This document shows positions 1,826 through 55,552 of a DNA stretch of 64,000 nt, one piece after another. The notes below the pieces were generated by a model. The model saw only the letters and a program-made list of their open reading frames with translations. It was not told the DNA's origin and ran no database searches. A program made the position numbers and the translations under genes. Each line of letters begins with the position of its first letter. Position 1 is the stretch's first letter. The DNA is from Leisingera methylohalidivorans DSM 14336 (lineage in GTDB: Bacteria; Pseudomonadota; Alphaproteobacteria; Rhodobacterales; Rhodobacteraceae): positions 3,374,371-3,438,370 of the forward strand of contig NC_023135.1 of assembly GCF_000511355.1 (NCBI RefSeq), given 5' to 3'.

Positions 1826-2754
1826 TCACTTCAGGCTTCGCTTGATTGTCTGATCCTGCAACTGCGCCAGCATCTCGTAGGGGCTGACCGTGTCACGGAT
1901 CGTCTTGGTGGCGACATGGGTGTATTGGGCCGTCGTGCTCAGCTTGGCATGGCCGAGCAGCACCTGGATGACCCGGACATCCGCTGCCCGGCAGGCGCAT
2001 CCGCAGGATGCTGCCGAGAGGGGGTGTTGGCCTCCAGCAGATGCGTCGCAAAGCTGTGCCGCAGGGTATGCAGCGTGGCGGCCTTTTTGATGCCGGCCAT
2101 GTTCTTCGCTGACGTGAAGGCGCGGTTCAGCTGCCGCGGCGAGATCGGGTTGATCTTCGGCTTGCCCGGGAACAGCCAGCCCTCCGGCCGCGCTTCGCGC
2201 CAGTAGTCGCGCAGCAAGCTCAGAAGCCCGGGTGACAGCATCACCTTCCGGTCCTTCCGCCCTTTGCCCTGTTCGACATGGATCAGCATCCGGTCGCTGT
2301 CGATATCGCCGGTCTTGAGGTTGCATACCTCGGCGGCCCGCAGCCCCGCGCCGTAGGAAATGCTGAGCGCGGCCCGGTATTTGAGCCCGGGCCCCGGTGC
2401 CGCCATCAGGATGTCCGATACCTCTTCCACGCTGAAGACTACAGGCAACTTCCTGGGCTGGGTGCGGAACTGCATGTAGCGCTTCATCTCCTCGCGCCCG
2501 CAGGTCATGCCGAAGAAGAATCTGAGCGCCACGATCCGGGCGTTGAAAGTCGCCGGCGTTACCCCTGTATCCGTCATGTGCAGTTGATAGGCGCGGAGTT
2601 CCTCCGGTGAGGCGGTATCCGGCGGGTGCCCGAGGAAAATGGCGAAATCCTTGACCGCCCGGATATGCGCTTTCTGCGCCTTGTCGCCCATCCCGCGGAT
2701 GCGCATGTCCTCGATCATCCGCTCTCGAAGCGGGGTCGATCTCTCCTCTGTCAT
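1826..2754 (-). pseudogene. IS91-associated tyrosine recombinase, disrupted by hairpin element
   Basis: A phage-integrase-family recombinase starting at ATG 2754. The N-terminal SAM-like domain and the catalytic Arg (GAGLRAAEV) and HxxR ([13 protein letters not shown]) are in one frame. The last part, with LGHAKL and the nucleophile Tyr (TTAQYTHV), is in another frame and ends at 1826. The frame changes exactly at a 39-bp palindromic repeat (1985-2023) that adds about 41 net bases between EANT and DVRVIQ. Removing those bases restores a normal recombinase of about 295 residues. The product is therefore predicted to lack its catalytic tyrosine. Confidence 0.85.
1985..2023 (+). repeat. Hairpin element copy A
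   Basis: A 39-nt element with 5' block TGCCCGGCAG and 3' block CGAGAGGGG. The inner arms are GCATCC and GGATGC around loop GCA, and CGGCA pairs with TGCCG outside them. It interrupts the tyrosine recombinase on the opposite strand and shifts its frame. It is one of seven copies in this window. Confidence 0.9.
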
Positions 2755-3264
2755 GGGAGCCTCCTGTCTGGTGATTGAGAAGAGCTCAATCGTCAGGCAG
2801 AAATGCCGTTCCCCAAATGCACCACTGTCAGATCATCGCTGAACACCAGCCACCCGCGCCAATGCCGCGGAGCGGCTTCGTCCTTGGGCCGACAGCACCA
2901 GTTGCCTTGGTGCCGATTTCGTGACTTTGCAAAGGTCGCTATCTGCGCTCCGCTGCCCCCGGTGCAACCCGCAGCATCACATGAGGCAGCTTGGCCCTGC
3001 CGAGGGTCCGCTTCTCTAATTGGGCGTTCGGGTCAAGCTCGTTTTCCTTCCTTGTACGGGATCTTTGTCGCTCATCCGGGTCACGCTTCTCTTCGCAGTC
3101 TGGGTGATGCCGGGTGAGGCATCGCTGCACGCATGTGCCGGATTGGCTGTGGAGAGCCTCGCTTTCGGACGCGCTTCTCGTTGCGCAGCAGACACTTTCG
3201 GCTTCTTCCACGAACCTCGTCCGGTGAGGACGATCCCGTTCAGTTTTGGTATTGGGCTATTAGG
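2755..3264. other. Intergenic stretch between IS elements
   Basis: No gene is recognised. The only notable content is a 49-nt segment at 2961-3009 that recurs imperfectly at 27926. The stretch separates the IS91 module from the IS110 copy and probably includes their termini, which I could not delimit. Confidence 0.4.
2961..3009 (+). repeat. 49-nt dispersed repeat, copy 1
   Basis: Begins GGTGCAACCC and continues with a conserved TCACATGA core. It matches 27926-27974 at about 40 of 49 positions without gaps. On the minus strand both copies could encode a similar peptide (KL-HV-LRVAP), so this may be the conserved tail of a degraded coding sequence and not a noncoding repeat. Confidence 0.55.
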
Positions 3265-4299
3265 TCATGCCATGCCCTCCACCGTCCCTGAACGGAACTC
3301 GGCGCCATCTGCCCACATGCGATGGAGCAGAACGGCCAGTTTGCGGGCGACAGCTACGACAGCGCGGCGGCGCCCCTTGGTGCGCATCAATCGCATGCCC
3401 CATGATTTGATCTGAGAGCCAGCCTTGGTTCGTACCAGCAAGGCGTTGGCGGCGGCGTAAAGTGTCGCCCTCACGTCTCGATCCCCGGCCTTGGATATTC
3501 GACCGGGATTATCTTGTTCACCGGACTGGTATCTTCGGGGCGTCAAACCAAAGTGAGCGGCCACAGTGCGAGATCGTTTGAAACGCGCGGGGTCATCAAC
3601 CGCAGCCTTGAAGGTCAATGCTGTAACCGGGCCCACGCCGGGGGCCGTCATCAGGCGCAGGCAGACCTCATCCTGGCGGGCCGCGCGTTTACCCCGCCGG
3701 TCCAGTTCCAGGAAGTGTTGGTGCAGCGCCAACCGGGCATCAAGCAGCGGCAGCAAGGCATGGGCCAACACCTCGTCCATCTCGACCATTGGCCGGACCA
3801 TATCGTCAAAGCTGCCATGCTGCACTGTTTTGGGCAGGCGGATACCGAAGATCTTCAAAAGACCGCGCACTTCGTTGGCCAGATCAATGGTCTTGCTCAG
3901 CAGAGCTTTCCGTGTGCTCAGAAGCGCCCGAATGCCGTGCGCCTCCCGGCTCTTCATATGAACGGGGCTGAACCACCCCGTGCGCAGGACTTGAGCAATT
4001 CCCCGAGCATCGTTCCGATCCGTCTTGTTGCGCATCGCCGATAGTGCGGCGCTCACCTGACGCGCTTCCATACAGACAACTTCAAACCCTTCAGCCATCA
4101 AGCCGTAGTACAGATGCTGACACATCGTACCGGCTTCAAAGCCAACACGCTCAATCGGAAAGCGAAGCGCAGTCAGATAGCCGGCAATCGCCTCAATCTC
4201 ACAAGGCAGTTCTTGCTCGTGCAGAACCGTGCCTTTGCCATCGACAACACAGGCCGCGCAGGACCGCAGCGAAACGTCCAAGCCCGCGAAATACTCCAT
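3265..4299 (-). CDS. IS110 family transposase
   Basis: A 344-residue DEDD transposase that looks intact. The RuvC-like N-terminal domain shows the acidic set: Asp in GLDVS, Glu in GFEAGT, and two Asp in KTDRNDARG. The C-terminal transposase_20 domain is recognisable by APGVGPVTALTF, FGLTPRRYQSGE and KLAVLLHRMW. Length matches the family. The element sits inside older IS3 debris (4594-4808). Family knowledge: IS110 elements carry a guide-type noncoding RNA next to the transposase gene; I could not define one here. Confidence 0.92.
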   Translation of the reverse strand: MEYFAGLDVSLRSCAACVVDGKGTVLHEQELPCEIEAIAGYLTALRFPIERVGFEAGTMCQHLYYGLMAEGFEVVCMEARQVSAALSAMRNKTDRNDARGIAQVLRTGWFSPVHMKSREAHGIRALLSTRKALLSKTIDLANEVRGLLKIFGIRLPKTVQHGSFDDMVRPMVEMDEVLAHALLPLLDARLALHQHFLELDRRGKRAARQDEVCLRLMTAPGVGPVTALTFKAAVDDPARFKRSRTVAAHFGLTPRRYQSGEQDNPGRISKAGDRDVRATLYAAANALLVRTKAGSQIKSWGMRLMRTKGRRRAVVAVARKLAVLLHRMWADGAEFRSGTVEGMA

Positions 4300-4593
4300 T
4301 CGAAATCTCCCATCTTCACAGATCTATTGTGATCCTATCGGGAGCTCGACCTCAGTTCAGGGTCTGCCCAATTACGCATGCTTCCGGGAAGTGTTTTGCG
4401 GCTGCAGAGGAGCCTTCGCTGTGCCTGGTTCGAATGTCGCGATTGGGCTGGCTCCGGCCCCCCACCGTGGGCGGCATGATGACCCGGCTTGGGGCCGCTT
4501 ACTATTCCCCCGGGGCAAAATTTGCCGAGAGGGACACCCTCTCGGCGCTCTCCCGATTTTTCGGCTTCGGCTCAGCCGCGCGTTTGTTGTGAC
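4300..4593. other. IS110 flank and inverted repeat
   Basis: No gene is seen. The stretch holds the upstream flank of the IS110 transposase and a perfect 10-bp inverted repeat at 4524-4546. Its arms GCCGAGAGGG and CCCTCTCGGC match the 3' block of the hairpin element family. Confidence 0.4.
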
Positions 4594-4808
4594 GCGCAGC
4601 CGCGCCGCCTCCGATACCTCCATGCCGCCAGACTTGGACTTCAGCTTGTAAAAGGTCGCCGGGCTCAGCCCATGCCGACGGCACACCTCCGCCGTCGGCA
4701 TCCCGTTCGGCACTACAATTGATCCACTGGATCAATTGCTTAACGCTTGAACTCCTGCTCTTTGATCATCCCGATGATTTGCGCCTCGGTGAAACGGCTC
4801 TTACGCAT
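4594..4808 (-). pseudogene. IS3 OrfA fragment, disrupted by palindrome
   Basis: Translation from ATG 4808 begins MRKSRFTEAQIIGMIKEQE, the typical helix-turn-helix start of an IS3-family OrfA. It then hits stops in an inserted palindromic sequence. The frame resumes from about 4701 with GMPTAEVCRRHGLS and ATFYKLK and loses similarity after AARLR at 4594. About 44 net bases were gained at the palindrome. The 3' part of the gene and OrfB are absent. Confidence 0.75.
4716..4738 (+). repeat. 23-nt perfect palindrome inserted in IS3 OrfA
   Basis: Arms CAATTGATCCA and TGGATCAATTG surround one central base. The palindrome lies inside about 44 bases foreign to the OrfA frame, and it brings stop codons. 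Arm length and total size match the palindrome at 12772-12794, and the right flanks resemble each other (CTTAACGCTTG versus CTTCAATGCCTCG). Confidence 0.7.
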
Positions 4809-4909
4809 TCGTCTGCTCCTACATAGGTTGCTCTGCCCCCTGAAAACTGGACCGTATGAAGCTGGAGTTTTCCGCTAAGTTTCCCTGGCTGGGAGAGGAG
4901 CGGAATCGC

Positions 4910-5176
4910 ATGAAAGCATCGAAGTTCACGGAGGCGCAGAAGGCCTTCATCCTGAAGCAGGGCGAGCAAGGCACGCCGGTCGCGGAGATCTGCCGCAAGG
5001 CGGGGATCAGCCAGGCGACGTACTTCAACTGGAAGAAAAAATACGGGGGTCTTCTGCCGGACGAGATGCGCCGGCTGAGAGCGCTGGAGGATGAGAACAC
5101 CCGGCTGAAGAAGATCGTAGCCGATCTGACGCTGGACCGGGAAATGCTTCAGGATGTCATTCGGCGAAAGCTCTGA
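4910..5176 (+). CDS. IS3 family transposase OrfA
   Basis: An 88-residue OrfA starting at ATG 4910, preceded by a purine-rich GGAGAGGAG. The helix-turn-helix is VAEICRKAGISQATYFNWKK, and the following leucine-zipper-like helix is rich in Leu, Glu and Arg. An in-frame ATG at 4856 would add residues encoded by the inverted repeat and is less likely. OrfB follows in the -1 frame, as usual for programmed frameshifting in this family, but it is interrupted, so the element should not transpose by itself. Confidence 0.8.
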   Translation: MKASKFTEAQKAFILKQGEQGTPVAEICRKAGISQATYFNWKKKYGGLLPDEMRRLRALEDENTRLKKIVADLTLDREMLQDVIRRKL

Positions 5177-5187
5177 AGCCTGGCCGT

Positions 5188-6052
5188 TTGCGCGAGATCG
5201 TCACCGGGATGTGCGTCGACTGGGGCGTGTCGATCCGGAGGGCCTGTGGGGCCATCTGCTTCGACACCTCCACCTACCACTACAAGTCCCGGCGGATCAC
5301 TGCCCGGCAGGGCATCGCCCAGCGATGTCCCGAGAGGGGACCAGGCTGCCGTCGAGCGGCGGATCAAGGAGATTGCAGAAACGCGTGTGCGCTATGGCTA
5401 CAGGCGCGTCCATGTTCTGTTGCGGCGAGAGGGCTGGACCATCAATATCAAGAAGACACGCAGGATTTACAATGAGTTGGGTCTGCAGTTGCGGAATAAG
5501 CACCCGAAACGGCGAGTGAAAGCCAAGCTGCGCGAGGATCGCGAAGAAGCCACCGGGCCGAACGACGTCTGGGCAATGGATTTTGTTCACGACCAGCTGG
5601 CCATGGGAAAGAAATTGAGGATCCTGACCGTGGTCGACACGCATTCGCGGTTCTGCCCTGTCGTGGATCCTCGGTTCAGCTACCGCGGCGAGGACGTGGT
5701 TCAGACCCTGGAACAGGTTTGCGGCAGGATTGGCTACCCGAACACCATTCGAGTCGATAATGGCAGCGAGTTCATCTCCCGCGATCTGGATCTCTGGGCC
5801 TACGCCAATGACGTCACGCTGGACTTCTCACGGCCCGGAAAGCCGACGGACAACGGGTTCATCGAGGCGTTCAACAGCAAGCTCCGATCCGAATGCATGA
5901 ACGCGCATTGGTTCATGAGCCTTGCCGACGCCCGCGAAAAGTTGGAAGCTTGGCGTAGACACTACAACGAAGACCGACCTCACAGTGCGATCGGGTATAA
6001 CGTCCCGATTGCCATGCATTATCCCGATGGCGTCACCAGCCCGTCATCGTGA
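5188..6052 (+). pseudogene. IS3 family transposase OrfB, disrupted by hairpin element
   Basis: The N-terminal part (LREIVTGMCVDWGVSIRRAC) and the rest (DQAAVERRIKEI onward) are in different frames. The change is at the 39-nt hairpin element at 5301-5339, with a net gain of about 40 bases. The DDE residues are otherwise intact: Asp in WAMDFV, Asp in VDNGSEF, Glu in FIEAFNSK. Excision of the hairpin would restore a full transposase, so this inactivation looks recent. Confidence 0.85.
5301..5339 (+). repeat. Hairpin element copy B
   Basis: A 39-nt copy with TGCCCGGCAG at the 5' side and CGAGAGGGG at the 3' side. The arms are GGCATCGC and GCGATGTC around CCA. It has the same length as copy A but different arm sequence. 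It breaks the OrfB frame. Confidence 0.9.
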
Positions 6053-6157
6053 CACAGCCGGAAAACTCCAGCTTCCGGTGGTCCAATGTTGGGGACCAGA
6101 GCACAAACCCGCAGACTCTCGTCATGAGCGAGGGACCAGCGGGGGGCAGGTCAGCAG

Positions 6158-6750
6158 TCCTATGGGTATCAGGCCCGGCGCACCGCCACAGGGGAGACCG
6201 TCAAAGATGAAAAGGATATCAATCCGGATGAAGCACCGATCGTTGAACGTATCTTCCGAGAATACGCCTCGGGCTAGTCGCCGCTCCAAATCGCAACGGC
6301 TCTCAACGCTGATGGTATCCTTGCCCCACGCGGCCGAGGCAATGGGTCTGGAGACTGGCGCCAGACGACGATCAACGGCAACCGAGACCGCGGCACCGGC
6401 ATTCTCAACAACGAACTCTATATTGGGCGCCGAGTCTGGGATCGCCTGCGGTATTCCAAGCACCCGGAGACCGGCAAACCTGTCTCCAAGCTCAACCCGT
6501 CCAATAACTGGATCTCGCACGAGGATGCGAACCTCCGGATCATCACACAGGACCTCTGGGACAGCGTAAAGGAGCGACAGACCGCGCAGCAGCGTGTCCG
6601 CGGCGCCAAGACCGCATCGGACGCCAACGGCCTGTCCGTGGCCCAAGGCATGCGTCGGCGCAAGTATCTGCTGTCCGGCCTGCTGTCCTGCGGACAATGC
6701 GGCGGCAACCTAACCATCGCAGGGAGCGGCAAGCCTGCTGGTCCCGACAT
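6158..6750 (+). pseudogene. Large serine recombinase, internal fragment
   Basis: The translated segment runs SYGYQARR, then NPDEAPIVERIFREYASG, a stop (TAG near 6275), then PLQIATALNADGI, GTGILNNELYIGRRVWDR and [13 protein letters not shown]. These are the Recombinase domain and zinc-ribbon region of large serine recombinases. The N-terminal resolvase domain with the catalytic serine and the C-terminal coiled coil are missing. It is cut on the left by the IS3 end and on the right by IstB debris. Confidence 0.75.
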
Positions 6751-6806
6751 TGCAAACGCAGCTTTCTCCGCATCGCTGCCGCTCGTGCCGGCGCAGCACC
6801 AGGACT

Positions 6807-7022
6807 AAGGCGCTCGAGCAGCGCGGTGGTCATCCTGGCTTCACCGAAGACCAAGGGCCATTCGCCGAAGTCGAGGTTGGTGGTCACGATGATCGATGTG
6901 TGCTCGTAGAGGCAGCTGATGAGATGGAACAATAGCTGACCACAGGTTTGTGCGAAGGGGAGATAGCCAAGCTCGTTGTGGATCAGGAAGTTGAGGCGGC
7001 ACAGCAGATCTGCCGTGCGGCC
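6807..7022 (-). pseudogene. IstB (IS21 family ATPase) fragment
   Basis: The segment reads [13 protein letters not shown], then [20 protein letters not shown], then [21 protein letters not shown]. This is the Walker B and sensor region of an IS21-type IstB helper ATPase. Family members have Asp in the Walker B position (DELGY); here it is Asn (NELGY). Both ends and the partner IstA are missing. Confidence 0.8.
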
Positions 7023-7131
7023 CTGAACGCATGCTGTCGGGCCGGGCGGGCGGCTCCTCCGGAATACGCAACCCGCTCCCTGGCCAGAGTGATTCTTGCT
7101 GCGGTATCGCGGGCGGCAATCGTAGATGCCG

Positions 7132-8421: not shown

Positions 8422-8479
8422 GCGTCTCCTGCCTGCGGTGTATTGAGAACACCTTCTGGCTTACACAACCTTTAGTTGT

Positions 8480-8840
8480 ATTGCGTGAAAAAATGCCGGC
8501 AAATCTATATTTAGGCCGTGTTGACAAAAGGGATTCCCACCGCGACGTGATCGTGTTTCAAGCTGGTATCTGCAATGGAGACCAGCTCGGCACGAGACCT
8601 GATGGGCAACGAGGAATGGGCGCGCGGGGTATTTTACCGCAAATCCAGATGCGCAAAACCCGCAAGATGCGCGCTGGTGTCGATCATACGCTCTACCGGC
8701 TGCGCAACATGGTTGAGAGGTGCTTCAGCAAGTTGGAAAACGTCCGCCGTGTCGCAACACGCTACGATAAAACCGCTGAGAGCTTCCTGGTCTTCATAGA
8801 TATACCCTCAATCCGGCTATGGCTGCGCCATCTGACCTAG
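8480..8840 (+). pseudogene. IS5 family transposase, 3' fragment
   Basis: The end of the reading frame, TLYRLRNMVERCFSKLENV then RRVATRYDKTAESFL and SIRLWLRHLT, is the conserved C-terminus of IS5-family (IS427-like) DDE transposases, with the last catalytic Glu in MVERCF. Upstream, similarity moves between frames and no N-terminal DDE part is present. Confidence 0.7.
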
Positions 8841-9918: not shown

Positions 9919-9927
9919 TGCAGAACC

Positions 9928-9961: not shown

Positions 9962-10022
9962 CTTACCAACCCGCATTTGCCTGCCGGCCGAAGCACCAGC
10001 CGTCAAACATGGGAGGTTCAAT

Positions 10023-13438: not shown

Positions 13439-14274
13439 TGCAGGTGACGGATCGTGGCTTGCGCGCATGGCGGCGCAGGCCGCCATCACGTCGTCAGCGC
13501 CGGGATATGGTCCTGCTGGCTCATATCCGCGAGCAGCACCGCCTGAGCCTTGGCAGCTACGGTCGTCCGCGCATGACGCAAGAGCTCAACGAATTGGGCA
13601 TCCATGTCTGGCAGCGGAGCGTGGCCAGGGTTATGCGCGACAACGGCATCCAGGTCCGGCGAAGCCGGAAGTTCAAGCGTACGCCCGAAAGCGACCATAG
13701 CTTCAATATGGCGCAGAATCCGCTGCGTCAGGATTTCACCGCCAATGCGCCAAACCAGAAATGGGCGGGAGATATAGCCTATATTTGGACCCGCGAGGGA
13801 TGGGCCTATCTTGCTGTCACCCTGGATCTGTATTCGCGACGCGTCATCGGCTGGGCGCTGAGCAACCGGATGAAACAGGATCTGGCCTTGCGCGCCCTGG
13901 ACATGGCCGTGGCCATCCGCAAGCCGCCTCCGGGCTGCATTCACCACACCGGTCACGGTGCGCAATACTGTGCCCGCGAATATCAGAAGCCTTTACGCAA
14001 GCACGAACTGGCGCCGTCGATGAGCGGCAAGGGCAATTGCTATGAAAAGCCGACCCCTATCAGCAGATTTTCATTGTAAATCGCCTGCCGGGCAACGGTC
14101 GAGAGCTTCTTCAAGTCACTGGAGGCCGAATTGATCCGGCGCCGGACCTGGCAGACCCGCCGCGAGGTCGAGCTGGCCGTCTTCGAATGCATCAATGGTT
14201 TTTACAACTCGCACCGACGGCATTCGGGCATCGGCTGGAAATCACCCGTGGCTTTCGAAAAGACCGCCGCCTAA
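13344..14274 (+). pseudogene. IS3 family transposase OrfB, stopped by hairpin element
   Basis: The frame carries the IS3 OrfB core: QKWAGDIAYIWTREGWAYLA with the first Asp, then HHTGHGAQY where the second Asp (normally HHTDRGSQY) is Gly. GKGNCYEK is followed by a 42-base in-frame gain (14050-14091) that contains TAA, then ATVESFFKSLEAELI with the catalytic Glu and the C-terminus WKSPVAFEKTAA. So both a point mutation and the hairpin element inactivate it. Confidence 0.85.
14054..14094 (-). repeat. Hairpin element copy G
   Basis: Minus-strand copy: TGCCCGGCAG at the 5' side, then GCGATTT, a loop, AAATC, and a degenerate 3' block GATAGGGG. It inserts 42 bases in frame into IS3 OrfB next to the catalytic Glu and brings a stop codon in the host gene's frame. 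Confidence 0.8.
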
Positions 14275-28216: not shown

Positions 28217-29236
28217 TTAGGCCAAATGTGGGTTGTAGGGTGCGCTACGGGTGAGAACGGCCCAGACGATTCGGGCCGTCTTGTTCGCCATAGCAACTGC
28301 AGCCAGGCGAGCAGGTTTGCGTTCAAGGAGCGACGTCAGCCATTTGCTGGCGCGCTCTGGATGTGATCGGGTTTGCCTGACAAGCGATGTCATCCCGACG
28401 ACAAGCAACGATCTTAAGTACTGATCGCCCATTTTGGTGATCCGGCCCAGCTTCTCTTTTCCACCACTGGATCTATTTGCGGGTGTCAAACCAAGCCACG
28501 CCGCAAATTCGCGGCCATTTCTGAACTGGTGCCCGTCTCCGATGCTGGCGATGATCCCCGAGGCTGTCACCGCTCCAACGCCTGGGATGGTTCGCAGCAG
28601 TCTTACCCGCTCATCTTCCCTAGCCACCTGCTTCAAACGTTCCTCATACCAGCGGACGCGTTTGTGCAACGCCTTAAGCTGTTCAGACAGGTTGCGGATC
28701 ACCTCATTGGCGATATCTGGGACATCGAGCACCTCTCCGAGGGTGATGTCTTCGGCAAACCCAATGACGCGAGCCAGACCTCGGGGTATATAAATGCCGA
28801 ACTCAGCGACCAGCCCTCGCAGGCCGTTGATTAACTGCGTTCTTTGGCGAACCAGAAGGTCACGCGCACGATGAAGCGATAGCAGTGACTGCTGTTCTAC
28901 CGTTTTGATGGCCACGAAGCGCATGGTCGGACGGGTAACAGCCTCGCAGATTGCCTCAGCATCAATCGCATCGGATTTGCCGCGTTTCACATAAGGTTTG
29001 ACATACATCGGAGGGATCAGACGCACGTCGTGGCCCAAGGCGGTCAACTCACGAGCCCAATGGTGCGCCGTGCTGCAGGACTCCATACCAATCAGGCAAG
29101 GTTCTAACTTCGCGAAGAACGGTAAAACTTGTGCGCGGCGTAGCGGTTTGTTGAAGGCGACACTTTCATCTCCGGAAATTCCGTGGACCTGAATTACGTT
29201 CTTCGCCAGATCAACACCGGTCGTGGTAACTTGCAT
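28217..29236 (-). CDS. IS110 family transposase (IS1111-like branch)
   Basis: 339 residues from ATG 29236; longer upstream reading is not IS110-like. DEDD residues: Asp in GVDLAKNVIQVHG, Glu in IGMESC, and two Asp in KSDAIDAEAICEA. C-terminal domain: TIPGVGAVTASGI, FAAWLGLTPANRSSGG with the family's serine, and ANKTARIVWAVL. It appears intact. It differs clearly from the copy at 3265 and is closer to the broken copy at 33660-34226. Confidence 0.9.
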   Translation of the reverse strand: MQVTTTGVDLAKNVIQVHGISGDESVAFNKPLRRAQVLPFFAKLEPCLIGMESCSTAHHWARELTALGHDVRLIPPMYVKPYVKRGKSDAIDAEAICEAVTRPTMRFVAIKTVEQQSLLSLHRARDLLVRQRTQLINGLRGLVAEFGIYIPRGLARVIGFAEDITLGEVLDVPDIANEVIRNLSEQLKALHKRVRWYEERLKQVAREDERVRLLRTIPGVGAVTASGIIASIGDGHQFRNGREFAAWLGLTPANRSSGGKEKLGRITKMGDQYLRSLLVVGMTSLVRQTRSHPERASKWLTSLLERKPARLAAVAMANKTARIVWAVLTRSAPYNPHLA

Positions 29237-29561
29237 GGGGTGGCTCCTCTCATAACCAGATATCGACACCTGCACTATGGCGCATTGCGACGCCGGTTGG
29301 AGCAGGAGCCATCCACCCCACCGGCTTCCGGGAAAGTGACCAAGGAATTTCGCGGCGGCAGAATCTTTGGCGCGACACCCCTTGTCTAAGGCCGCTTCGG
29401 GCTGCCTGCCGTCATCCTGGGGAACAGCCGGGAAGCGCTCTAATCCTCCGAAACGGTGACCCGGTCGCCCCGGCGCGGAATCGGGATTTGTTCGCGGATT
29501 TCGATGACGGCTGCGTGCTGTCGGGCGCGGTGATTTTGCCTCGGTTGACAGAGGGTTTCCC

Positions 29562-30440
29562 ATGACCGTTCAGCAGTCCGCGCCGGCGGCACCCCTTCGC
29601 GCCCGGATGATTGCCGATATGCCGGCGCGCAATCCGGGGCCGGCGCTTCAAACCAGCCTCTTGCGGGCCTGCAAGCGGTTTGCAGCCTGGCTCGGACGAT
29701 CCCCCGGGACCGCGGCAACCGATGATGTGCGGGGCTTCCAGCGGCATCTGATGGAAAGCGGCACCAGCATCTGTACCCGCAGTCAGACCATGACCGGGGT
29801 GAAGTTTCTGTTCCGGGTGACGCTGCGGCGGCATAACCTGGCCGCGGAGGTTTTCAGCCTCAAGGAGCCGGTGAAGGTGCCGCTGGGCTGAGCGGTACCG
29901 GGGTCAAGCGTATCCTGCTCATGGCACCAAGCTTGAAGGCGCGTGTGATGCTGTCGCTCGCCTATGGCTGCGGCCTGCGTGCGGGCGAAGTTGTCCGGCT
30001 CAAGGTCGGCGGCATCGACGAGGACCAGAAGATCATCCGCATCGTGCAATCCAAGGGCCCGCAAGGATCGCAACGTGATGCTGCCCGCGGGTATTCCGGG
30101 CTTGTTGCGCGAGTGGTGATAAGAACGGCCCGCCGGTCAGGACACAGGCGTGGCCGGGCCTGAACGGGTCATTTTCCCCGGCTATCGCGGCAAGCCCGGA
30201 ATACCCGTCAGTTCCCGCGTTTGTTCAAGCAGGCGGCGCGGGCCGCGGGCATCACCAAGCCTGTGACGCTGCACACGCTGCGGCACAGTTTTGCGACACA
30301 TCTGCCGGAGCGCGGCGTCGGCATCCGGGTCGTTTATTGCCCGGCAGTCGAAACCCAGTTTCGATGAGAGGGCAGGCGCTGCTCGGGCATGCCAAACTGA
30401 CCACGACGGCGCGCTACGCCAGTGTCGCCGCCACTGCCCG
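29562..30440 (+). pseudogene. Tyrosine recombinase, multiply disrupted
   Basis: An IS91-type integrase homologue in several frames. Segments: LLRACKRFAAWLGRSPGTAA, then LKEPVKVPL, a deletion, LKARVMLSLAYGCGLRAGEV with the first Arg, [18 protein letters not shown] with HxxR, then LLGHAKLTTTARYASVAAT with the nucleophile Tyr. Two hairpin elements lie in its last 110 bases. Copy D (net 38 bp) separates GIRVV from QALLGH, and copy C follows the Tyr motif. Other frameshifts occur near 29890 and 30060. Confidence 0.8.
30338..30372 (+). repeat. Hairpin element copy D
   Basis: TGCCCGGCAG, arms TCGAAAC and GTTTCGA around CCA, then the shortened 3' block GAGAGGG. The net gain in the host gene is 38 bases (30335-30372), judged from the conserved VVQALLGHA block on both sides. 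Confidence 0.88.
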
Positions 30441-30473
30441 GCAGGCGATTGCGCAGCAATACCCGAGAGGGGG
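30435..30473 (+). repeat. Hairpin element copy C
   Basis: TGCCCGGCAG, arms GATTGC and GCAAT around GCA, and 3' block CGAGAGGGG. It lies 97 nt after copy D in the same orientation, at the 3' end of the same recombinase remnant. Confidence 0.88.
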
Positions 30474-42022: not shown

Positions 42023-42910
42023 GCTCCTCGCGTCGCCGTTCCTGCATCACTCATGCGCGCAGCGGGATGCCGGTTTCAAAGCGTCGCGTTTGCCGCGTCC
42101 CGGGCCGGTACCGGTCCACACAGCGGCGATTGCCTCAGGGGCGTGAAGACGAGGAGCGCCTGGTCGCGGACATGATCGAGCTGACACGTCAATATGGCCG
42201 ATATGGCTGCCGCCGGGTTGCGGCCTTGCTGCGGGACGCCGGCTGGCAGGTGATTGACAGGCGGGCCGAACGCCTATGGCGGCGCGAGGGGCTGAAGGTT
42301 CCATTGAAACAGCCCAGGAAGGGGCGGCTCTGGCTCAACGGCGGATCATGCGCCCGGCTGCGCCCCGAATGTCGCAGCCACGTCTGGTCCTGCGGCTTCG
42401 TGCATCATCGACCTGATGATGGCGGGGCGTTCAGGACATTGAACATTCTGGAGGAACACAGCCGGGAGTGCCTGGCCATCCGTGTGAAGCGGAAGCTGAA
42501 CCGGGCCGGGGTCAGCGGCGCGCTGACCGACCTGTTCCTTCTACGCGGCGTGCCTGCCTGCATCCGGTCGGACAACGGCCCGGAGCCTATCGCTGAGGCT
42601 GTCAGAGATTGGAGCAAAGCTTCGGGGGAAAGACCGCCTGCATCGAGCCAGGATCGCCGTGGGAGAACGGATTTTGCGAGAGTTTCAACGGGCGGATGCG
42701 CCCCTCTCGGCAGCATGCTTTGCATGCGCCTGACGGGCAATGGACAAACTGCTGAACGGGGAGGTCTTCTAGCCTCTGCGGGAAGCCCAGATCATCATCG
42801 AAAGCTGGAGACAGCACTGCAACACTAAACGACCGCACAGTGCCCTGGTCTGCCGCCCGCCTGCGCCCGAGGCCATCGTCTTGATGGACCAGCGGCCAAC
42901 CATGCACTAA
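42013..42910 (+). pseudogene. IS3 (IS407-like) OrfB, disrupted by hairpin element
   Basis: LSSSRRRSCITHARSGMPVS through RSDNGPEPIAEAVRDWSKAS, then frameshifts near 42625. The hairpin element (42701-42739) splits FNGRMR from DKLLNGEVF with a net gain of 41 bases, and a stop precedes PLREAQIIIESWRQHCNTKR. The first catalytic Asp is Gly (WSCGFVH), and GPEF has become GPEP. Confidence 0.85.
42701..42739 (-). repeat. Hairpin element copy E
   Basis: Minus strand: TGCCCGTCAG, arms GCATGC and GCATGC around AAA, then CTGCCGAGAGGGG. 39 nt, the same length as copies A and B. It is inserted in IS3 OrfB just after the region of the catalytic Glu. Confidence 0.88.
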
Positions 42911-46775: not shown

Positions 46776-46825
46776 GCAGGTCTTCTTTCCGTGTGATGAA
46801 GGGCAGGGGCTGCAAGCCTCGCAAG

Positions 46826-48988: not shown

Positions 48989-49064
48989 CAGCGCCAGCTC
49001 TCTTGTCAATTGGCGGGGCGCATGTTTCGCCCCGTGCATTCCTTTCAATCAGAGGGCAGATCCC

Positions 49065-50303
49065 ATGCCGCAAGATATCGTTGTCATCGGCGCAGGTGTC
49101 GTCGGTATCAGCATCGCAGCCGGACTGGCCCGGCAGGGGCACAAGGTCCGGGTGCTGGACCGCACCGGCGTTGCCGCCGAGACTTCGCAGGGCAACGCCG
49201 GGGCTTTTGCCTTTACAGATGTGATGCCCCTGGCGGCGCCGGGCATCATGCGCAAGGCGCCGAAGTGGTTGCTGGATCCGCTGGGCCCGCTGTCGATCCC
49301 GCCGCGCTATGCATTGCGGATCGCACCCTGGATGCTGCGGTTCTGGCGGGCCAGCTGGCAGGACCGCCACGACGCCTCCGTTGCGGCTCAAAGCGCACTG
49401 ATGGATCTGTCCAGGGCGGCGCTGGAACGCCAGATTGCCGCCACCGATGGCGAGGCGCTGATTCAACGCGACGGCCAGTTGCAGCTGTATGAGGGCGAGG
49501 CGCAGTTTCGCGACAGCCTGCCCGGGTGGGAGCTGCGCGGTCGCTATGGTATCAGGTATGAACTGCTGCGCAGCCCCGAGGAAATCGCCGAGATCCAGCC
49601 GGGCCTCGACCGCCGGTTCACCCATGCGGGCTTCACGCCGGACTGGATCAACACGACCGACCCGAAAGCCTGGACCGAACATCTGGCACGCGGCTTTGTG
49701 GCCGCAGGCGGAGAGATCCTGAGCAGCACCGTCCGCTCGATAGCCCAGGACGGGGAGCGGGTTGAGCTGGTCTGCGAAGACGGCAGCATAACGGCCGACA
49801 AGGTTGTGGTGGCAGCAGGCGCCTGGTCGCATCATTTGGCGCGCACCCTCGGGGACCGCATCCCGCTGGAGACAGAGCGTGGCTACAACACCACCCTGCC
49901 TGCCGGGGCATTTGACGTGCGCACCCATCTGACATTCGGTGCGCATGGCTTTGTGGTCAGCCGTATCAATGGTGGTGTGCGGGTCGGCGGCGCGGTGGAG
50001 CTGGGTGGGTTGAAGCTGCCACCCAACTACAAGCGCGCGGATGTGTTGCTGCAAAAGGCTGCGCGTTTCTTGCCGGGGCTTGAGACCTCGGGCGGCACCC
50101 GCTGGATGGGGTTCCGGCCCTCAATCCCGGATACGCTGCCCGTCATCGGCACCTCACCGCGGGCCGAGAACGTGATCTATGCCTTTGGTCACGGGCACCT
50201 GGGGTTGACCCAGTCCGCCGCCACCGCCGAGCTGGTGGGCGATGTGGTTGCGGGCAGGAACTGTTCGATTCCGCTTCAGCCTTACAGGGCTGACCGATTT
50301 TGA
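49065..50303 (+). CDS. FAD-dependent D-amino-acid (D-hydroxyproline) dehydrogenase
   Basis: 412 residues, DAO/DadA fold. Dinucleotide motif IVVIGAGVVGISIAAGLARQ at the N-terminus, GNAGAFAF after the second strand, and the C-terminal FAD block GHGHLGLTQSAATAELVGD. Expected reaction: oxidation of cis-4-hydroxy-D-proline to pyrroline-4-hydroxy-2-carboxylate with electrons to the respiratory chain. It stands between two proline-racemase-family genes on the same strand. Confidence 0.88.
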   Translation: MPQDIVVIGAGVVGISIAAGLARQGHKVRVLDRTGVAAETSQGNAGAFAFTDVMPLAAPGIMRKAPKWLLDPLGPLSIPPRYALRIAPWMLRFWRASWQDRHDASVAAQSALMDLSRAALERQIAATDGEALIQRDGQLQLYEGEAQFRDSLPGWELRGRYGIRYELLRSPEEIAEIQPGLDRRFTHAGFTPDWINTTDPKAWTEHLARGFVAAGGEILSSTVRSIAQDGERVELVCEDGSITADKVVVAAGAWSHHLARTLGDRIPLETERGYNTTLPAGAFDVRTHLTFGAHGFVVSRINGGVRVGGAVELGGLKLPPNYKRADVLLQKAARFLPGLETSGGTRWMGFRPSIPDTLPVIGTSPRAENVIYAFGHGHLGLTQSAATAELVGDVVAGRNCSIPLQPYRADRF

Positions 50304-50318
50304 TTGAGGAAGCAGTGA

Positions 50319-51344
50319 ATGCGTAGCGCAAAGACCATACATGTGATTTCGGCCCATGCCGAAGGCGAGGTCGGCGATGTCATTGTCGGCGGCGTGCTGC
50401 CGCCGCCGGGTGAGACGCTGTGGGAGCAGCGCAACTTCATCGCGCAGGACGAGACCCTGCGCAACTTCGTGCTGAACGAACCGCGCGGCGGCGTGTTTCG
50501 TCATGTGAACCTGCTGGTGCCGCCCAAGCACCCCGAGGCCATAGCCGCTTGGATCATCATGGAGCCGGAAGACACGCCGCCGATGTCCGGCTCGAACTCG
50601 ATCTGCGTCTCGACTGTGCTTCTGGATGGCGGGCTGGTGCCGATGCAGGAGCCGGAAACGCATATGGTGCTGGAAGCGCCGGGCGGGCTGGTGAAGGTGC
50701 GCGCGGAGTGCCGCAACGGCAAGGCTGAGCGTATTTTTGTGCAGAATCTTCCGAGTTTTGCCGACAAGATTCAGGTTCCGCTTGAGGTCGAAGGGCTGGG
50801 CACGATCACCGTGGACACCGCCTATGGCGGCGACAGTTTCGTGGTGGTAGATGCGCAGGCACTGGGTTTTAAGATTGTCGAATCCGAGGCCAAGGAAATT
50901 GCCCGCCTTGGCGTACGCATCACTAATGCGGCCAATGAACAGCTAGGCTTCAGTCACCCGGAAAACCCGGAATGGGATCATATCTCCTTTTGCGCCTTCT
51001 GCGGTCCGCTCAGCGAAACGGATACCGGCCTGAGCGGCAAATCGGCTGTGGCCATTCAACCCGGTAAGGTCGATCGCTCGCCAACCGGCACCGCGGTTTC
51101 GGCGCGGATGGCGCTGATGGCGGCGCGCGGCCAGTTGCAGGTTGGGCAGACCTTTGACGCCGTGTCGATCATCGGCTCGCGCTTTGCCGGCCGCATTGTC
51201 GAGACCGCAAAGGTGGGGGAGCGGGATGCCATCGTGCCAGAGATCAGCGGCCGCGGCTGGGTGACGGGAATTCACCAGCATCTGCTGGACCCGGATGACC
51301 CCTGGCCGGGCGGCTATCGCCTGTCGGACACTTGGGGCGCTTGA
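50319..51344 (+). CDS. Proline racemase family paralogue with Ser/Thr site, likely trans-3-hydroxyproline dehydratase
   Basis: 341 residues. It aligns with the epimerase fold, but the first catalytic Cys is Ser ([11 protein letters not shown]) and the second is Thr ([11 protein letters not shown]). A Thr at the second site is known in trans-3-hydroxy-L-proline dehydratases, so a two-base epimerase is unlikely and dehydration to pyrroline-2-carboxylate is the best guess. The convergent LDH2-family reductase at 51389 would then make L-proline. Gap to the previous gene is 15 nt. Confidence 0.78.
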
Positions 51345-51353
51345 GTACCGAAG

Positions 51354-51383
51354 AAGGGGGCTGATCAGATCTGCCCCCTTTTT
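51354..51383. terminator. Bidirectional terminator between convergent genes
   Basis: The arms AAGGGGGC and GCCCCCTT with an 11-nt loop and flanking A and T runs lie between two convergent stops (51344 and 51389). It can serve both strands. Confidence 0.88.
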
Positions 51384-51388
51384 CTGGT

Positions 51389-52408
51389 TCACGCGCCGGA
51401 CAGAGCGGTCAGGTCATCATACAGCGCCTGCGGGATTTCCACATAGCCGCGCTGCAGGTTGCGGGCGCGGGCGGCAAAGCGGCGCTGCGAGGGCAGGCGC
51501 GCGCCCTGATCGATGATGTCGGCAAACAGGCGCTCGGCGCGGGCGCCGTTTTCGGCGGTGCGGCCCGCGCTGAAATGCTGCGGATCAAAGGCGAGGATGA
51601 TCTCGCCATGATACGGCGCGCCGCCAGCGCCCTCGGCGAACTCCATGCTTTCCAGACTGGTGAGGTCGTCGATCAGCGGTCCGGCCATCAGTTCGATCAT
51701 GATCGACAGGGCGGAGCCTTTGTAGCCGCCAAAGGTCAGCATCGCCCCATCCAGAGCCGCCTGCGGGTCGGTAGTTGGCTTGCCATCCTTGTCGATCGCC
51801 ACCCCTTCAGGCAGCGGTTTGCCTGCGCGCTTGTACAGTTCGATCTGGCCGCGGGCAAAGCCGCTAGTGGCAAAGTCAAAGGTGAAGGGATCCTTGCCTG
51901 CGCGCGGCCAGGAAAAGGCGATCGGATTGGTGCCGAGACTGCCGCGTGTTCCACCGGCAGGCGCAACCCAGGAATGGCTGGGCACCATTGCCAGGCCTGC
52001 AAGACCGGCAGAGGACAACCGCTCAACCTCCGGCCAGAGCGCCGAGAAATGAAAGCAGTTGTTGATTGCCATCGCGGCAATTCCATACCTTCGCGTCTTT
52101 TCGACAAGCGTCGGCAGTGCCTGTTCCAGCGCCAGAAGAGACATGCCGCCCCGTGCGTCCGCGCGCACTATGGCGGTATCTTCGTTTAATATGTGAGGCG
52201 GAACATGCCCATCAATCTTGCCAGCCCTCATCGTCTGCTCACACATGAGCAGGCGGAACAAGCCATGCGACTGACAGTCATCTATTTGGCATGTATAAAG
52301 CATGTCCGAGATTGCCTGCGCATGGGCTTGACCATAGCCTGCGCGGCTGAGAACCGACAGGCTTAGCTCCTTGATCTCCTGAAGGGGGAGTTGTCTTACG
52401 GTTGTCAT
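51389..52408 (-). CDS. LDH2/malate dehydrogenase family reductase, likely pyrroline-2-carboxylate reductase
   Basis: 339 residues from ATG 52408. Family markers: SHGLFRL near the N-terminus, NNCFHFSALWPEVERL, GTRGSLGTNPIAFSWPR and FDFATSGFARGQIELYKRAG, plus GGYKGSALSIMIELM. NAD(P)H-dependent. Next to a probable trans-3-hydroxyproline dehydratase, reduction of pyrroline-2-carboxylate to L-proline is the likely role. A GntR-type site lies just upstream. Confidence 0.83.
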   Translation of the reverse strand: MTTVRQLPLQEIKELSLSVLSRAGYGQAHAQAISDMLYTCQIDDCQSHGLFRLLMCEQTMRAGKIDGHVPPHILNEDTAIVRADARGGMSLLALEQALPTLVEKTRRYGIAAMAINNCFHFSALWPEVERLSSAGLAGLAMVPSHSWVAPAGGTRGSLGTNPIAFSWPRAGKDPFTFDFATSGFARGQIELYKRAGKPLPEGVAIDKDGKPTTDPQAALDGAMLTFGGYKGSALSIMIELMAGPLIDDLTSLESMEFAEGAGGAPYHGEIILAFDPQHFSAGRTAENGARAERLFADIIDQGARLPSQRRFAARARNLQRGYVEIPQALYDDLTALSGA

Positions 52409-52426
52409 AGCGCGGCTCCAAACTCT

Positions 52427-52450
52427 AATTTTGGATATTGGATGCAATAG
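52427..52450 (-). promoter_or_regulatory. Putative GntR operator (reductase gene)
   Basis: AATTTTGGATATTGGATGCA, within 45 nt of the reductase start. It shares TTTTGGATATTG with the TRAP operon site. Confidence 0.6.
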
Positions 52451-52520
52451 TTGGGCGGTGTTTGGCAAATCTTTTTTGGCTTCTGAAACTGGAAATGCTG
52501 CTGTATGGTCAGTCTATTAG

Positions 52521-52540
52521 TAAATATGCATCCAAAATAC
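52521..52540 (+). promoter_or_regulatory. Putative GntR operator (autoregulatory)
   Basis: The reverse complement reads GTATTTTGGATGCATATTTA and carries the TTTTGGAT half-site 16 nt before the gntR start. Confidence 0.55.
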
Positions 52541-52556
52541 AAAAGGGAGATGCAAG

Positions 52557-53237
52557 ATGGCAGGCGGGCGAGCTGTCAAGAAGCTAAGCTTACCTGAGAT
52601 GATCGTAAGCGATCTCAGGCAGCGCATTCTGAGCGGTGAGCTGGCAGAAGGAGAGGCCATCCGGCAGGAGCTTCTGGCGAAGGAATATGATGTCTCGAGG
52701 ATGCCTGTGCGGGAAGCCTTGAAACGGCTGAGTGCGGAAGGCCTTGTGCAATGGGAGAACAACCGCGGCGGGACGGTCATCAAGCATTCCCTTCATGAGA
52801 TCGGGGAAATTTTCGATCTGAGGATTCTGATCGAAGTCGACCTTTTCCGCCGGGCAATTCCAAACATGGCAGCGGCCCACTTTGAGGCATGCGAGCGGCT
52901 TCTGACTGAGATGGAACGCTCTTATGAAGCTGACGATGTCAGCCAATGGGGCAAGTTCAACCACGAATATCACATGGGGCTTTACGCCGCGGCTGACCGG
53001 CGCATGTCGATGGAATTTCTGGAGCGCATCAGCCTTCATTCGGATCGGTATGTGCGTATCCACCTCAGCGTCATGAAACAGCGCAAACCTGCACAGGAGG
53101 AGCACAGGAAGCTCCTGACGTATGCCCGCAATGGTGACGTGGACGGCGGAGCAGCTTTGTTGCGGCAGCATATTGAACGCACCAAGACTGAATTGCTGGA
53201 AATGATTGTAAAGCAGAGGCGTCACGGAAGCGAGTGA
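52557..53237 (+). CDS. GntR family regulator, FCD domain (hydroxyproline regulon)
   Basis: 226 residues. Winged helix: LRQRILSGELAEGEAIRQEL, then YDVSRMPVREALKRLSAEGL. The FCD effector domain has metal-type residues: Asp/Glu in FDLRILIEVDLF, His in FNHEYHMGLY and the later His pairs (HSDRY, EEHRKLL). It stands in the middle of the hydroxyproline genes. Similar TTGGATA-N3-TATCCAA-type sites precede five units, including this gene, so it is probably the local repressor. Confidence 0.88.
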   Translation: MAGGRAVKKLSLPEMIVSDLRQRILSGELAEGEAIRQELLAKEYDVSRMPVREALKRLSAEGLVQWENNRGGTVIKHSLHEIGEIFDLRILIEVDLFRRAIPNMAAAHFEACERLLTEMERSYEADDVSQWGKFNHEYHMGLYAAADRRMSMEFLERISLHSDRYVRIHLSVMKQRKPAQEEHRKLLTYARNGDVDGGAALLRQHIERTKTELLEMIVKQRRHGSE

Positions 53238-53276
53238 ATGGCTGCGTGAGAAGGCAGGGGCTTGCGCGCACCGCTT

Positions 53277-53302
53277 AATTGGATACAATATCCTAAATAT
53301 CA
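53277..53302 (+). promoter_or_regulatory. Putative GntR operator (aldehyde dehydrogenase gene)
   Basis: AATTGGATACAATATCCTAA, close to the inferred full palindrome TTGGATA-N3-TATCCAA, 40-60 nt before the start at 53340. Confidence 0.65.
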
Positions 53303-53339
53303 AACCTTTACCTATGCACTCGCACGAAAGTGAGCCGAC

Positions 53340-54854
53340 ATGACCTTTATCCCGCATGGAAAACACCTCATCGCAGGCGTTTGGACCGCAGGCAGCGATT
53401 CGTTTCAATCGAGTCCCGCGCATGGGCCTAGCCACAGCTTTTCCGTTGGCCGCGTTTCGGATGTGGAGGCAGCCGCCCAGGCCGCGGAAGAGGCGTTCTG
53501 GAGCTACGGCTATTCTACCCGCCAGTCCCGCGCCGATTTTCTGAACGCAATTGCCGACGAAATCGAAGCACGGGCCGACGCGATCACCGAGATCGGAACC
53601 CAGGAGACAGGCCTGCCGGAAGCGCGTCTGCAAGGGGAACGTGGCCGTACAACTGGCCAGTTGCGCCTGTTCGCCGCCCATATTCTGAAAGGCGACTACC
53701 TGGACCGCCGTCATGACGAGGCGCTGCCGGAGCGCCAGCCCATGCCGCGCCCGGACCTGAAGATGGTGCAGCGCCCTATCGGTCCGGTTGCGGTGTTTGG
53801 CGCCTCCAACTTCCCGCTGGCTTTTTCCACTGCCGGGGGCGATACCGCCGCCGCACTGGCTGCCGGCTGCCCCGTGGTTGTCAAAGGCCATTCCGCGCAT
53901 CCGGGAACCGGAGAGATCGTCGCTGAGGCGGTTCATGCGGCGGCAGTGAAATGCGGCGTGCATCCTGGCGTGTTCAGCTTGATTCAGGGCGGCAACCGCC
54001 ACGTGGGGGCGGCGCTGGTCCAGCATCCGCTGATCAAGGCGGTCGGGTTCACCGGTTCGCTGGCCGGAGGCCGCGCGCTGTTCGATTTGTGCGCTGCGCG
54101 TCCCGAACCAATTCCGTTCTTCGGCGAACTCGGCTCTGTCAACCCGATGTTCATTTTGGACGGGGCGCTGGACGCCCGTGCCGAAGAGATCGGCAAGGGC
54201 TGGGCGGCATCGCTCAGCATGGGGGCGGGCCAGTTCTGCACCAATCCCGGTGTAGCCGTTGTCAATTCGGGTGAGCAGGCAGAAAAATTCGCCGCTGCGA
54301 CCCGGCAGGCTCTTGGCGAGACCGGGGCACAGACGATGCTGACCGATGGCATAGCTGAAGCCTACCGCAACGGTCAGCGGCGGATCGCCGAAACGGAAGG
54401 TGTCCAAGAACTGCTGACTTCGATGTGCGACCAGCGTGAAGCGACACCATACCTGTATCAGACGACCGCAAAGAACTGGATGAACAACGAAGTGCTGGCC
54501 GAGGAAGTTTTCGGGCCTATGGGCATCATTGTTGTGGCAGAAGGCGTCGAAGACATGCGCGCCATCGCACGGAACCTGAAAGGCCAGCTGACTTGCACGG
54601 TGCATATGGAAGATGCCGATACCCCGGACGCCCAGGCGCTGATGCCGATCCTAGAGCGCAAGGCGGGCCGGGTTCTGGCGAATGGTTTCCCCACTGGCGT
54701 CGAAGTGAGCGATACCATGGTGCACGGCGGGCCGTACCCCGCATCGACAAATTTCGGAGCCACATCAGTGGGGACCTTGTCGATCCGCCGCTTCCTGCGT
54801 CCGGTTTGCTATCAGAATTTGCCTGAGGGACTGGTTATTGGCCAGGATGCATGA
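53340..54854 (+). CDS. Aldehyde dehydrogenase, likely alpha-ketoglutarate semialdehyde dehydrogenase
   Basis: 504 residues. Catalytic Glu in FFGELGSVNPMFIL and Cys in GAGQFCTNPG. FGASNFPLAFSTAGGDTAAA and GHSAHPGTGE are typical of the NADP-dependent KGSADH branch of the ALDH superfamily. It closes the hydroxyproline pathway by making alpha-ketoglutarate for the TCA cycle. It has its own GntR-type operator. Confidence 0.9.
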   Translation: MTFIPHGKHLIAGVWTAGSDSFQSSPAHGPSHSFSVGRVSDVEAAAQAAEEAFWSYGYSTRQSRADFLNAIADEIEARADAITEIGTQETGLPEARLQGERGRTTGQLRLFAAHILKGDYLDRRHDEALPERQPMPRPDLKMVQRPIGPVAVFGASNFPLAFSTAGGDTAAALAAGCPVVVKGHSAHPGTGEIVAEAVHAAAVKCGVHPGVFSLIQGGNRHVGAALVQHPLIKAVGFTGSLAGGRALFDLCAARPEPIPFFGELGSVNPMFILDGALDARAEEIGKGWAASLSMGAGQFCTNPGVAVVNSGEQAEKFAAATRQALGETGAQTMLTDGIAEAYRNGQRRIAETEGVQELLTSMCDQREATPYLYQTTAKNWMNNEVLAEEVFGPMGIIVVAEGVEDMRAIARNLKGQLTCTVHMEDADTPDAQALMPILERKAGRVLANGFPTGVEVSDTMVHGGPYPASTNFGATSVGTLSIRRFLRPVCYQNLPEGLVIGQDA

Positions 54855-55552
54855 CTGCCAGCTTCACAGCGTGGCGGCTTACGGTAAAAATTGGGGCGGG
54901 CCTATCGGCCCGCTGCCTCATAGACCATCTATCCTCCGGTTTCCGTGGCAGAGGGCCGTTATATGTAGACCTCCTTCGTCTCAGAAACATTCTTGCCGTC
55001 CATGGAAACGCTATTCCTAGTGATGTCTGTTTGGCTCAGTGGGCACCTTAAAGTGAACCGGACAGGCTCGAAATTTAGGCAGGTTGCGACGTTCACGCGG
55101 CTCCGAGTTGGGCATTTCCGCGCGGTGGATTTTCGCGTTCAGCGCTTCAATCATTGCCCGGCAGGCGATTTGTGAAGCAAATCTTCCGAGAGGGGCATTG
55201 GAAACCGGTATGCAGATCCTGGTGCCAATGTTCGGCCCCGGTTTTCGGATCAGGGTGTATGCTGATAGCACCCGGGACGGAGGCAAGGGGAGCGCGATTG
55301 TGCAGGCAGGCCGAAGTATTCCATGAGCTGCGAGCTCGTGTTAGTAGCCGGCCGCCTCTGCGACTGACCCGGTTGAGCCGGGAGCGCGAACCTGTTGGTG
55401 GCGTGTCGCCCGCGGCTCCCGCTTTTTGTCACTGGCAAGAGTGGCACGCATCCGAACCAGATCAAGCATTGGAAGGATCAGCTTATGGATGGCTTGACGG
55501 ATGTATTTGACGACAAGCGGAAGACTTCCAAGGAGTAAGCAGATAGACACGA
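54855..55552. other. Gene-free stretch with hairpins
   Basis: Contains a 7-bp GC hairpin (GCGGGCC-TATC-GGCCCGC, 54896-54913) that could end the aldehyde dehydrogenase transcript, and hairpin element copy F. No real reading frame was recognised. Confidence 0.45.
55155..55195 (+). repeat. Hairpin element copy F
   Basis: TGCCCGGCAG, arms GATTTG and CAAATC around a 5-nt loop, then TTCCGAGAGGGG. 41 nt. It is the only copy not inside a recognisable mobile-element gene; the flanks are degraded DNA. Confidence 0.85.

Follow-up and report, generated by a model that had tools for sequence, protein, structure and literature searches.

A family of very small hairpin elements inserted in insertion sequences of Leisingera methylohalidivorans and its relatives

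A 64,000-nucleotide stretch of the genome of Leisingera methylohalidivorans DSM 14336 (contig NC_023135.1, positions 3,374,371 to 3,438,370; hereafter the window) contains seven copies of a hairpin of about 40 nucleotides (nt), lying mainly within the genes of insertion sequences (ISs). Comparison of filled and empty sites revealed a real hairpin element that inserts as an exact unit without target duplication, with a strong concentration of insertions in transposase and integrase genes. The hairpin family occupies many sites in many genera. Its members are probably mobile DNA elements of very small size, non-autonomous and made of one hairpin each, that would be moved as folded single-stranded DNA by an enzyme acting in trans.

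Hairpin copies in the window and their empty sites

All seven copies claimed by an original prediction, made from the letters of the window, were found where it had placed them (1985, 5301, 14054, 30338, 30435, 42701 and 55155), and these positions are used below as site names. Its two conserved end blocks are real, but the unit begins three bases (C-R-Y) before the TGCC and ends in GAGAGGG. The family consensus is 5'-CRY-TGCCCGGCA, a variable self-complementary stem and GAGAGGG-3', with a length of about 34-45 nt; a fourth G after GAGAGGG is usually a target base and not part of the element. Three further exact matches to TGCCCGGCAG in the window (27394, 34945 on the minus strand, and 59413) are not counted as copies, the other end being absent, and an Rfam search of the window gave 0 matches. 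Genomes and loci are referred to by our G and L labels, the window's whole genome (4.65 Mb, 3 contigs) being G000. The copies are as follows, with sense and antisense assigned by reading.

1982..2022, plus strand: hairpin copy of 41 nt, CGC-TGCCCGGCAG...GAGAGGG, antisense in an IS91-associated integrase gene
5298..5338, plus strand: hairpin copy, sense in an IS3-family orfB, net gain 40
14055..14097, minus strand: degenerate hairpin copy with a GATAGGGG end, antisense in an IS3-family orfB, gap of 42 against L082
30335..30372, plus strand: hairpin copy of 38 nt that begins TAT, sense in an IS91-type integrase copy
30432..30471, plus strand: hairpin copy of 40 nt, sense, near the seemingly truncated end of the integrase copy that holds 30335..30372
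42702..42742, minus strand: hairpin copy of 41 nt, antisense in an IS3-family transposase
55152..55194, plus strand: hairpin copy of 43 nt, outside any recognised host gene

The hosts in the window are therefore of two kinds, the IS91-associated tyrosine recombinase (1985, 30338 and 30435) and IS3 transposases (5301, 14054 and 42701). Empty sites were sought for 159 distinct stem-bearing sites with 100-bp flanks from all fetched loci, a relative being counted at 70% identity or more. A hairpin-free relative was available for 104 of the 159, and at 70 of these 104 sites it equals the joined flanks exactly, with the unit CRY...GAGAGGG absent and no target duplication. The original prediction had proposed comparing filled and empty sites in otherwise identical IS copies, and two hairpin-free copies of the window's IS91, 97% identical, were present on plasmids of Leisingera sp. 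M527 (L153 and L154). Their empty site reads GACATC^GGTGTTGG and the filled site GACATC-[CGC TGCCCGGCAG...GAGAGGG]-GGTGTTGG, a difference of 41 bp without duplication.

Net gains over hairpin-free relatives were 41 at 1985, 40 at 5301, 41 at 42701, 38 at 30338 and 42 at 14054, and the interrupted genes are without these bases in the empty-site alignments, as a discrete inserting unit implies. At 30435 no empty site could be used, the integrase copy being apparently truncated at that place. The unit measures 34-45 nt, most commonly 41 (66 of 156 distinct sites); its length is divisible by three at 24 of the 159 sites, and in-frame cases do occur.

Target, ends and stem of the element

The element inserts at YYRTC^G. 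Flank letters were tabulated over 156 distinct sites, which are distinct by those letters, so that some represent one place in diverged IS copies. On the left, position -1 is C at a frequency of 0.80, -2 is T at 0.57 and -3 is A or G at 0.81, and on the right +1 is G at 0.85, with background frequencies of 0.31 for C and 0.30 for G. The last three left-flank bases, ATC at 44 sites and GTC at 32, are part of the empty target. Empty sites reading TC^G include GTGCTGTC^GATCA in an IS5 and CTCGTC^GCGCATG in an IS3 (L191, a relative for 42701), and that of L042 reads AAC^ACC.

The first base of the element is C in 154 of the 156 sites. R-Y follows this C at 69 of 84 sites when the pattern leaves the two letters free, a count that takes in chance sites, and is demanded by the pattern in the 156-site count. 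Among 105 distinct stems, 23 occur at two or more distinct flanks (subject to the same caveat on flank letters), and one stem type (GGCGATTGCGAAGCAATCTGCC) carries AT, AC and GC as R-Y at different sites. A link between the target purine and the element purine was rejected (Fisher p = 0.69), and five of eight other flank tests gave p between 0.02 and 0.05, uncorrected.

The stem sequence is free to vary while pairing is kept. In 58 distinct 41-mers, Watson-Crick pairs fill 494 of the 522 inner cells, compared with a mean of 361 and a maximum of 378 when the 3' letters were redealt and with at most 173 in slid pairing registers; the outer letters (CCC/GGG) are fixed by the search pattern and are uninformative for the covariation and flank tables. 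Whole pairs swap, with G-C in 30 and C-G in 26 cases at one position. A stem is formed by 113 of 126 distinct stem segments, and under separate stem criteria by 104 of 152 distinct cores as against 9 of 760 shuffles. Loops are mostly 3-4 nt, and the first pair is G-C or G-T, its G being set by the pattern.

One bulged base, the most that the method permits per stem, is present in 58 of the 113 stems and always lies in the 3' arm; it is a T in 46 of the 58, and for 45 of those the distance to the base of the stem is exactly 3 bp. The same 41-mers contain 9 G-T cells and 12 A-C cells, with no excess of wobble pairs. The lack of a G-T excess over A-C, together with a strand-specific unpaired T, points to folded DNA rather than RNA as the form under constraint.

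Spread of the family and state of its host genes

A strict two-end pattern gave 14 matches in the window's whole genome and 0 in the backwards control, and a relaxed pattern gave 22 and 1. The search of related genomes that had been proposed with the element yielded many further copies: the relaxed pattern was found in 47 of 101 genomes (the window's genome and 100 relatives), some of them by chance, since in several single-match genomes the matching stretch is stemless. The highest counts were in G002 (60), G009 (53), G003 (43), G027 (31) and G019 (23). At least 118 and 71 stretches, together at least 189, were taken with the pattern from public genome and viral collections, respectively, and the stem-bearing matches among those listed with a title (L216-L295) are mostly from Rhodobacterales. 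The matches listed also hold a clear copy in Vreelandella neptunia (L237), as well as a stem-bearing match without the C-R-Y start in a Rhodospirillales metagenome-assembled genome (L234) and a weaker match in Cohaesibacter (L224).

Transposase or integrase homology lies within 450 bp of 41 of 80 collection sites, compared with 13 of 365 control positions taken from the same loci at distances above 1.5 kb; the 80 sites have an energetic stem and the C-R-Y start, and a few may be chance. With 17 query proteins, two of them one frame, 41 of 80 is a lower bound. Reading frames were viewed at 30 of the 39 sites with no match and Pfam was run at four, and some of these sites also lie in transposases, of the Mutator family in L222 and of a DDE family in L361. 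Hairpins occur in several unrelated IS families, where their sites differ, and also in intergenic DNA, in both orientations. Elsewhere, a hairpin lies near a cytosine-methyltransferase-like frame, named by eye, in three viral contigs (L365, L339 and L378), and beside or inside a RelE-like toxin gene in L355 (by Pfam) and L266 (alike by eye). The IS genes at or near hairpins in the window are the following; it also contains two IS110-family transposases, at 3268-4323 and 28220-29569, both on the minus strand.

623..1825, minus strand: IS91-family Y2 transposase (Y2_Tnp, Zn_Tnp_IS91), hairpin-free
1942..2832, minus strand: open frame covering the 5' portion of the tyrosine recombinase gene associated with IS91, a gene that the hairpin at 1982-2022 interrupts
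5345..6049, plus strand: IS3 orfB (HTH_21, rve), open, downstream of the hairpin at 5298-5338
13441..14052, plus strand: part of an IS3 orfB (HTH_21, rve), upstream of the hairpin at 14055-14097

Hairpin-bearing ISs still multiply with the hairpin inside. The IS3 at 5301 has four copies at 100% in G000, together with a hairpin-free relative at 92%. In G003 a 1311-bp IS3 that holds two hairpins, one of them frame-breaking, is present eight times at 99-100%, together with one relative at 78%. A 1386-bp IS3 occurs six times at 99-100% in G033. Its orfB contains four hairpins, two sense and two antisense, two exact-ended and two slightly diverged by eye, with lengths not divisible by three; orfB is otherwise open in the one copy that was read, and no hairpin-free full-length copy was found in G033. 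G002 has seven copies of a 1249-bp IS5 with a hairpin and, by reading, extra frameshifts.

Hairpin-bearing ISs looked otherwise intact at first, but several of them proved to contain frameshifts and stops, and this view was given up. The IS3 transposase that holds 42702..42742 also has a stop where a neighbouring copy has a tyrosine codon, L070 has an added nonsense change, and the hairpin-bearing IS5 of G009 has, by reading, a short duplication. Of the five hairpin-type insertions in the IS91 of L156, three belong to this family, one of these having a diverged end, and two are of another type. The two genes of this IS91 have no stop, one other 1-nt insertion and 89 substitutions, with a ratio of nonsynonymous to synonymous change (pN/pS) of 0.15 in the integrase and 0.37 in the transposase. 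Among integrases, pN/pS was 0.30, 0.47 and 0.53 between filled copies and 0.17, 0.22 and 0.38 between filled and empty copies, all six values being rough, as the stretch takes in about 69 nt before the start codon.

Other small hairpins were met in these loci. The second type of insertion in L156 starts GTCGTGYYGAA, has a CGCCTCCGGC hairpin, measures 25-27 nt in the IS91 tnpA, and is also present in L163, a similar IS. L067, L073, L107, L164 and L178 share a third repeated hairpin, GCGAGCYTTTGTCCGCCATTGRTCCGAG..CAATGGCGA, about 40 nt long. By reading, the IS5 of G002 in L116 also has a further insertion, which measures about 49 nt, contains a GTGGCCCCAGTGGGGCCGC hairpin and lies between conserved motifs of the transposase. 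A short form with the stem GGCGGC-loop-GCCGCC was seen in several places (L001, L049, L054, L059, L061, L062 and L064), mostly with a AAATACTCCCG-like stretch upstream and GAGGC downstream, which suggests a larger intergenic repeat.

Mode of movement and relation to known systems

The hairpins are probably small mobile DNA elements, the mobile unit being the hairpin of about 34-45 nt with its unequal conserved ends (CRYTGCCCGGCA and GAGAGGG). The unpaired T on one arm, the absence of target duplication and the one-sided target suggest, indirectly, that it would move as folded single-stranded DNA, with one strand recognised by its unequal ends and by the T left unpaired in the 3' arm, and that cutting and joining may be carried out by an enzyme supplied in trans, either HUH-like or another hairpin-reading nuclease or recombinase. 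The hairpin would then be carried along as its host IS multiplies or moves between genomes. Such an element would be a parasite of transposons, for which no benefit to the cell is required.

Several observations weigh against this interpretation. No new insertion was witnessed in real time, and 34 of the 104 filled/empty pairs are inexact (21 by +1 base, 7 by -1 base and 6 by more). Relatives at the 5301 site read GGACGGACC and not TC^G, and at 42701 TC^G is seen in one of the three aligned relatives and TCCCG in the other two. The R-Y dinucleotide, which differs between sites for the same stem, is not accounted for by this interpretation. When the seven window copies were folded singly as DNA, z ranged from -0.47 to -3.08, and four copies scored weaker than -2. 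Furthermore, no mobilising gene was found among matches to Y1, Y2 and reverse-transcriptase profiles, and no other recombinase families were searched. Y1_Tnp (PF01797) was matched in 15 of 61 genomes, with no match in G002 (60 copies), G006, G011, G019 or G033; Y2_Tnp (PF04986) in 12 of 20, with none in G006, G011, G016, G033 or G059; and RVT_1 (PF00078) in 12 of 20, with none in G002, G003, G006, G008, G011 or G019. An ever-present partner of any of these three kinds was rejected, each being absent from some hairpin-rich genomes. Copies travel inside ISs, and the present-day absence of an enzyme gene therefore does not exclude a past role.

Another view is that the hairpins are an ordinary family of repetitive extragenic palindromes (REPs) moved by a Y1 transposase of the REP-associated tyrosine transposase (RAYT) type that was often lost later. 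The ISs of the IS200/IS605 group work with hairpins, a strand-specific unpaired base, a one-sided target and no duplication, and the size, hairpin, unpaired base, one-sided target and lack of target duplication observed here resemble this way of working, as the Y1 matches in some genomes would allow. However, there is no GTAG foot, the copy-richest genome has no Y1 match, and hairpins are absent from the ends of all 12 Y1 loci that were fetched, which measure about 2-3.4 kb; only L139 holds the hairpin at all, with two copies, one inside an IS5, at about 0.9 kb from its Y1 match. We consider this origin unlikely. That the hairpin is instead immobile, a structural or RNA motif that transposase genes have inherited, is hardly credible: the same element does occupy the same site in IS91 integrases of G000, G009 and G014, but near-identical hairpin-free copies exist, insertions lie at different sites of unrelated IS families and in intergenic DNA, and the empty sites rule this view out, bearing out the earlier claim that the unit is not an inherited motif.

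A further possibility is that the hairpins are neutral for expression, being removed from the transcript or passed by ribosomes in the manner of a mini-intron or a bypass, so that interrupted transposases keep working. The four-hairpin IS3 of G033 is the sharpest case for it, followed by the two-hairpin IS3 of G003 and by the IS91 transposase of L156, in which four insertions (two of this family) are accompanied by no stop, one 1-nt indel near the start and 60 substitutions. However, the IS3 of G033 has both orientations within one otherwise open gene, an arrangement that recognition of the unequal ends at the RNA level would not permit, and the stems are without RNA wobble bias. The IS5 of G002 multiplies despite its frameshifts, and dead ISs are therefore moved in trans (as the duplication in the IS5 of G009 also suggests), so that intact-looking ones need no special explanation; possible helpers are present in the 78% relative of G003 and the 92% hairpin-free relative of G000. 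The nonsense change in L070 and the rough integrase pN/pS values for filled/filled and filled/empty pairs also speak against neutrality, which we regard as very improbable. There is likewise little reason to expect that transposase genes with several frame-breaking hairpins in both orientations stay functional through a cell that removes or skips the hairpins at the RNA, translation or DNA level, as a bacterial system akin to mini-introns within transposons would, and the pN/pS values and the reading frames of L156 are compatible with hairpin-bearing genes being functional or not.

Among the open-licence papers listed for REPs, palindromes and Roseobacter, or for the end sequences, none was seen to describe this element. 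REPs, integron attC sites and Rickettsia palindromic elements (RPEs) had been named as the nearest concepts; REPs are indeed closest in way of working, but the hairpin departs from each of the three in at least one defining feature. The sections of Di Nocera et al. 2013 (PMC3733652) used here describe CGTC-tagged REPs as short hairpins, commonest in Alphaproteobacteria, with heterogeneous stems of 8-9 bp, A-T first pairs, loops of 4-5 nt and a CCA tail, mostly intergenic with some copies inside genes, and apparently without a dedicated or associated transposase gene. As far as those sections go, the present hairpins are alike in size, host class, heterogeneous stems, the presence of copies inside genes and lack of a transposase gene, perhaps also in a GTC-like tag beside the hairpin, and differ in a G-C or G-T first pair, loops mostly of 3-4 nt, a GAGAGGG tail, a TC that is a pair of target letters, and strong enrichment in transposase genes. 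GTAG REPs with RAYTs are also single non-autonomous hairpin units with strand-specific features, whereas the feet here are CRYTGCCC and GAGAGGG with flanks YYRTC and G, and, besides the Y1 loci without terminal hairpins, G002, G019 and G033 lack a Y1 match.

Miniature inverted-repeat transposable elements (MITEs) are likewise non-autonomous, hairpin-forming and present in many copies, but here the ends are unequal, the usual terminal inverted repeats are missing and no target is duplicated. The attC sites share conserved ends, an unpaired middle section and a variable stem; the present unit is much shorter and has no cassette, and the R and L box motifs were not seen at its ends on inspection. 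RPEs, which are also palindromic units inside protein genes, are read in frame, whereas in-frame insertion is not the rule here, as the 24 of 159 lengths divisible by three indicate. Their in-frame reading is stated in part in PMC3733652. Translational bypassing elements have one orientation, sense, in contrast to the two orientations seen here even in one gene. The hairpin works like a REP or a MITE, yet lacks defining features of both.

The insertion of REP-type hairpins is an old open question, for which this family offers filled and empty sites, a target rule, a strand-specific mark and countable copies. As these are found in culturable marine strains, the missing enzyme and its chemistry are directly testable. 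As mobile DNA elements, the hairpins would represent a very small parasite that uses insertion sequences as its vehicles, and their presence breaks transposase reading frames in genomes of the Roseobacter group.

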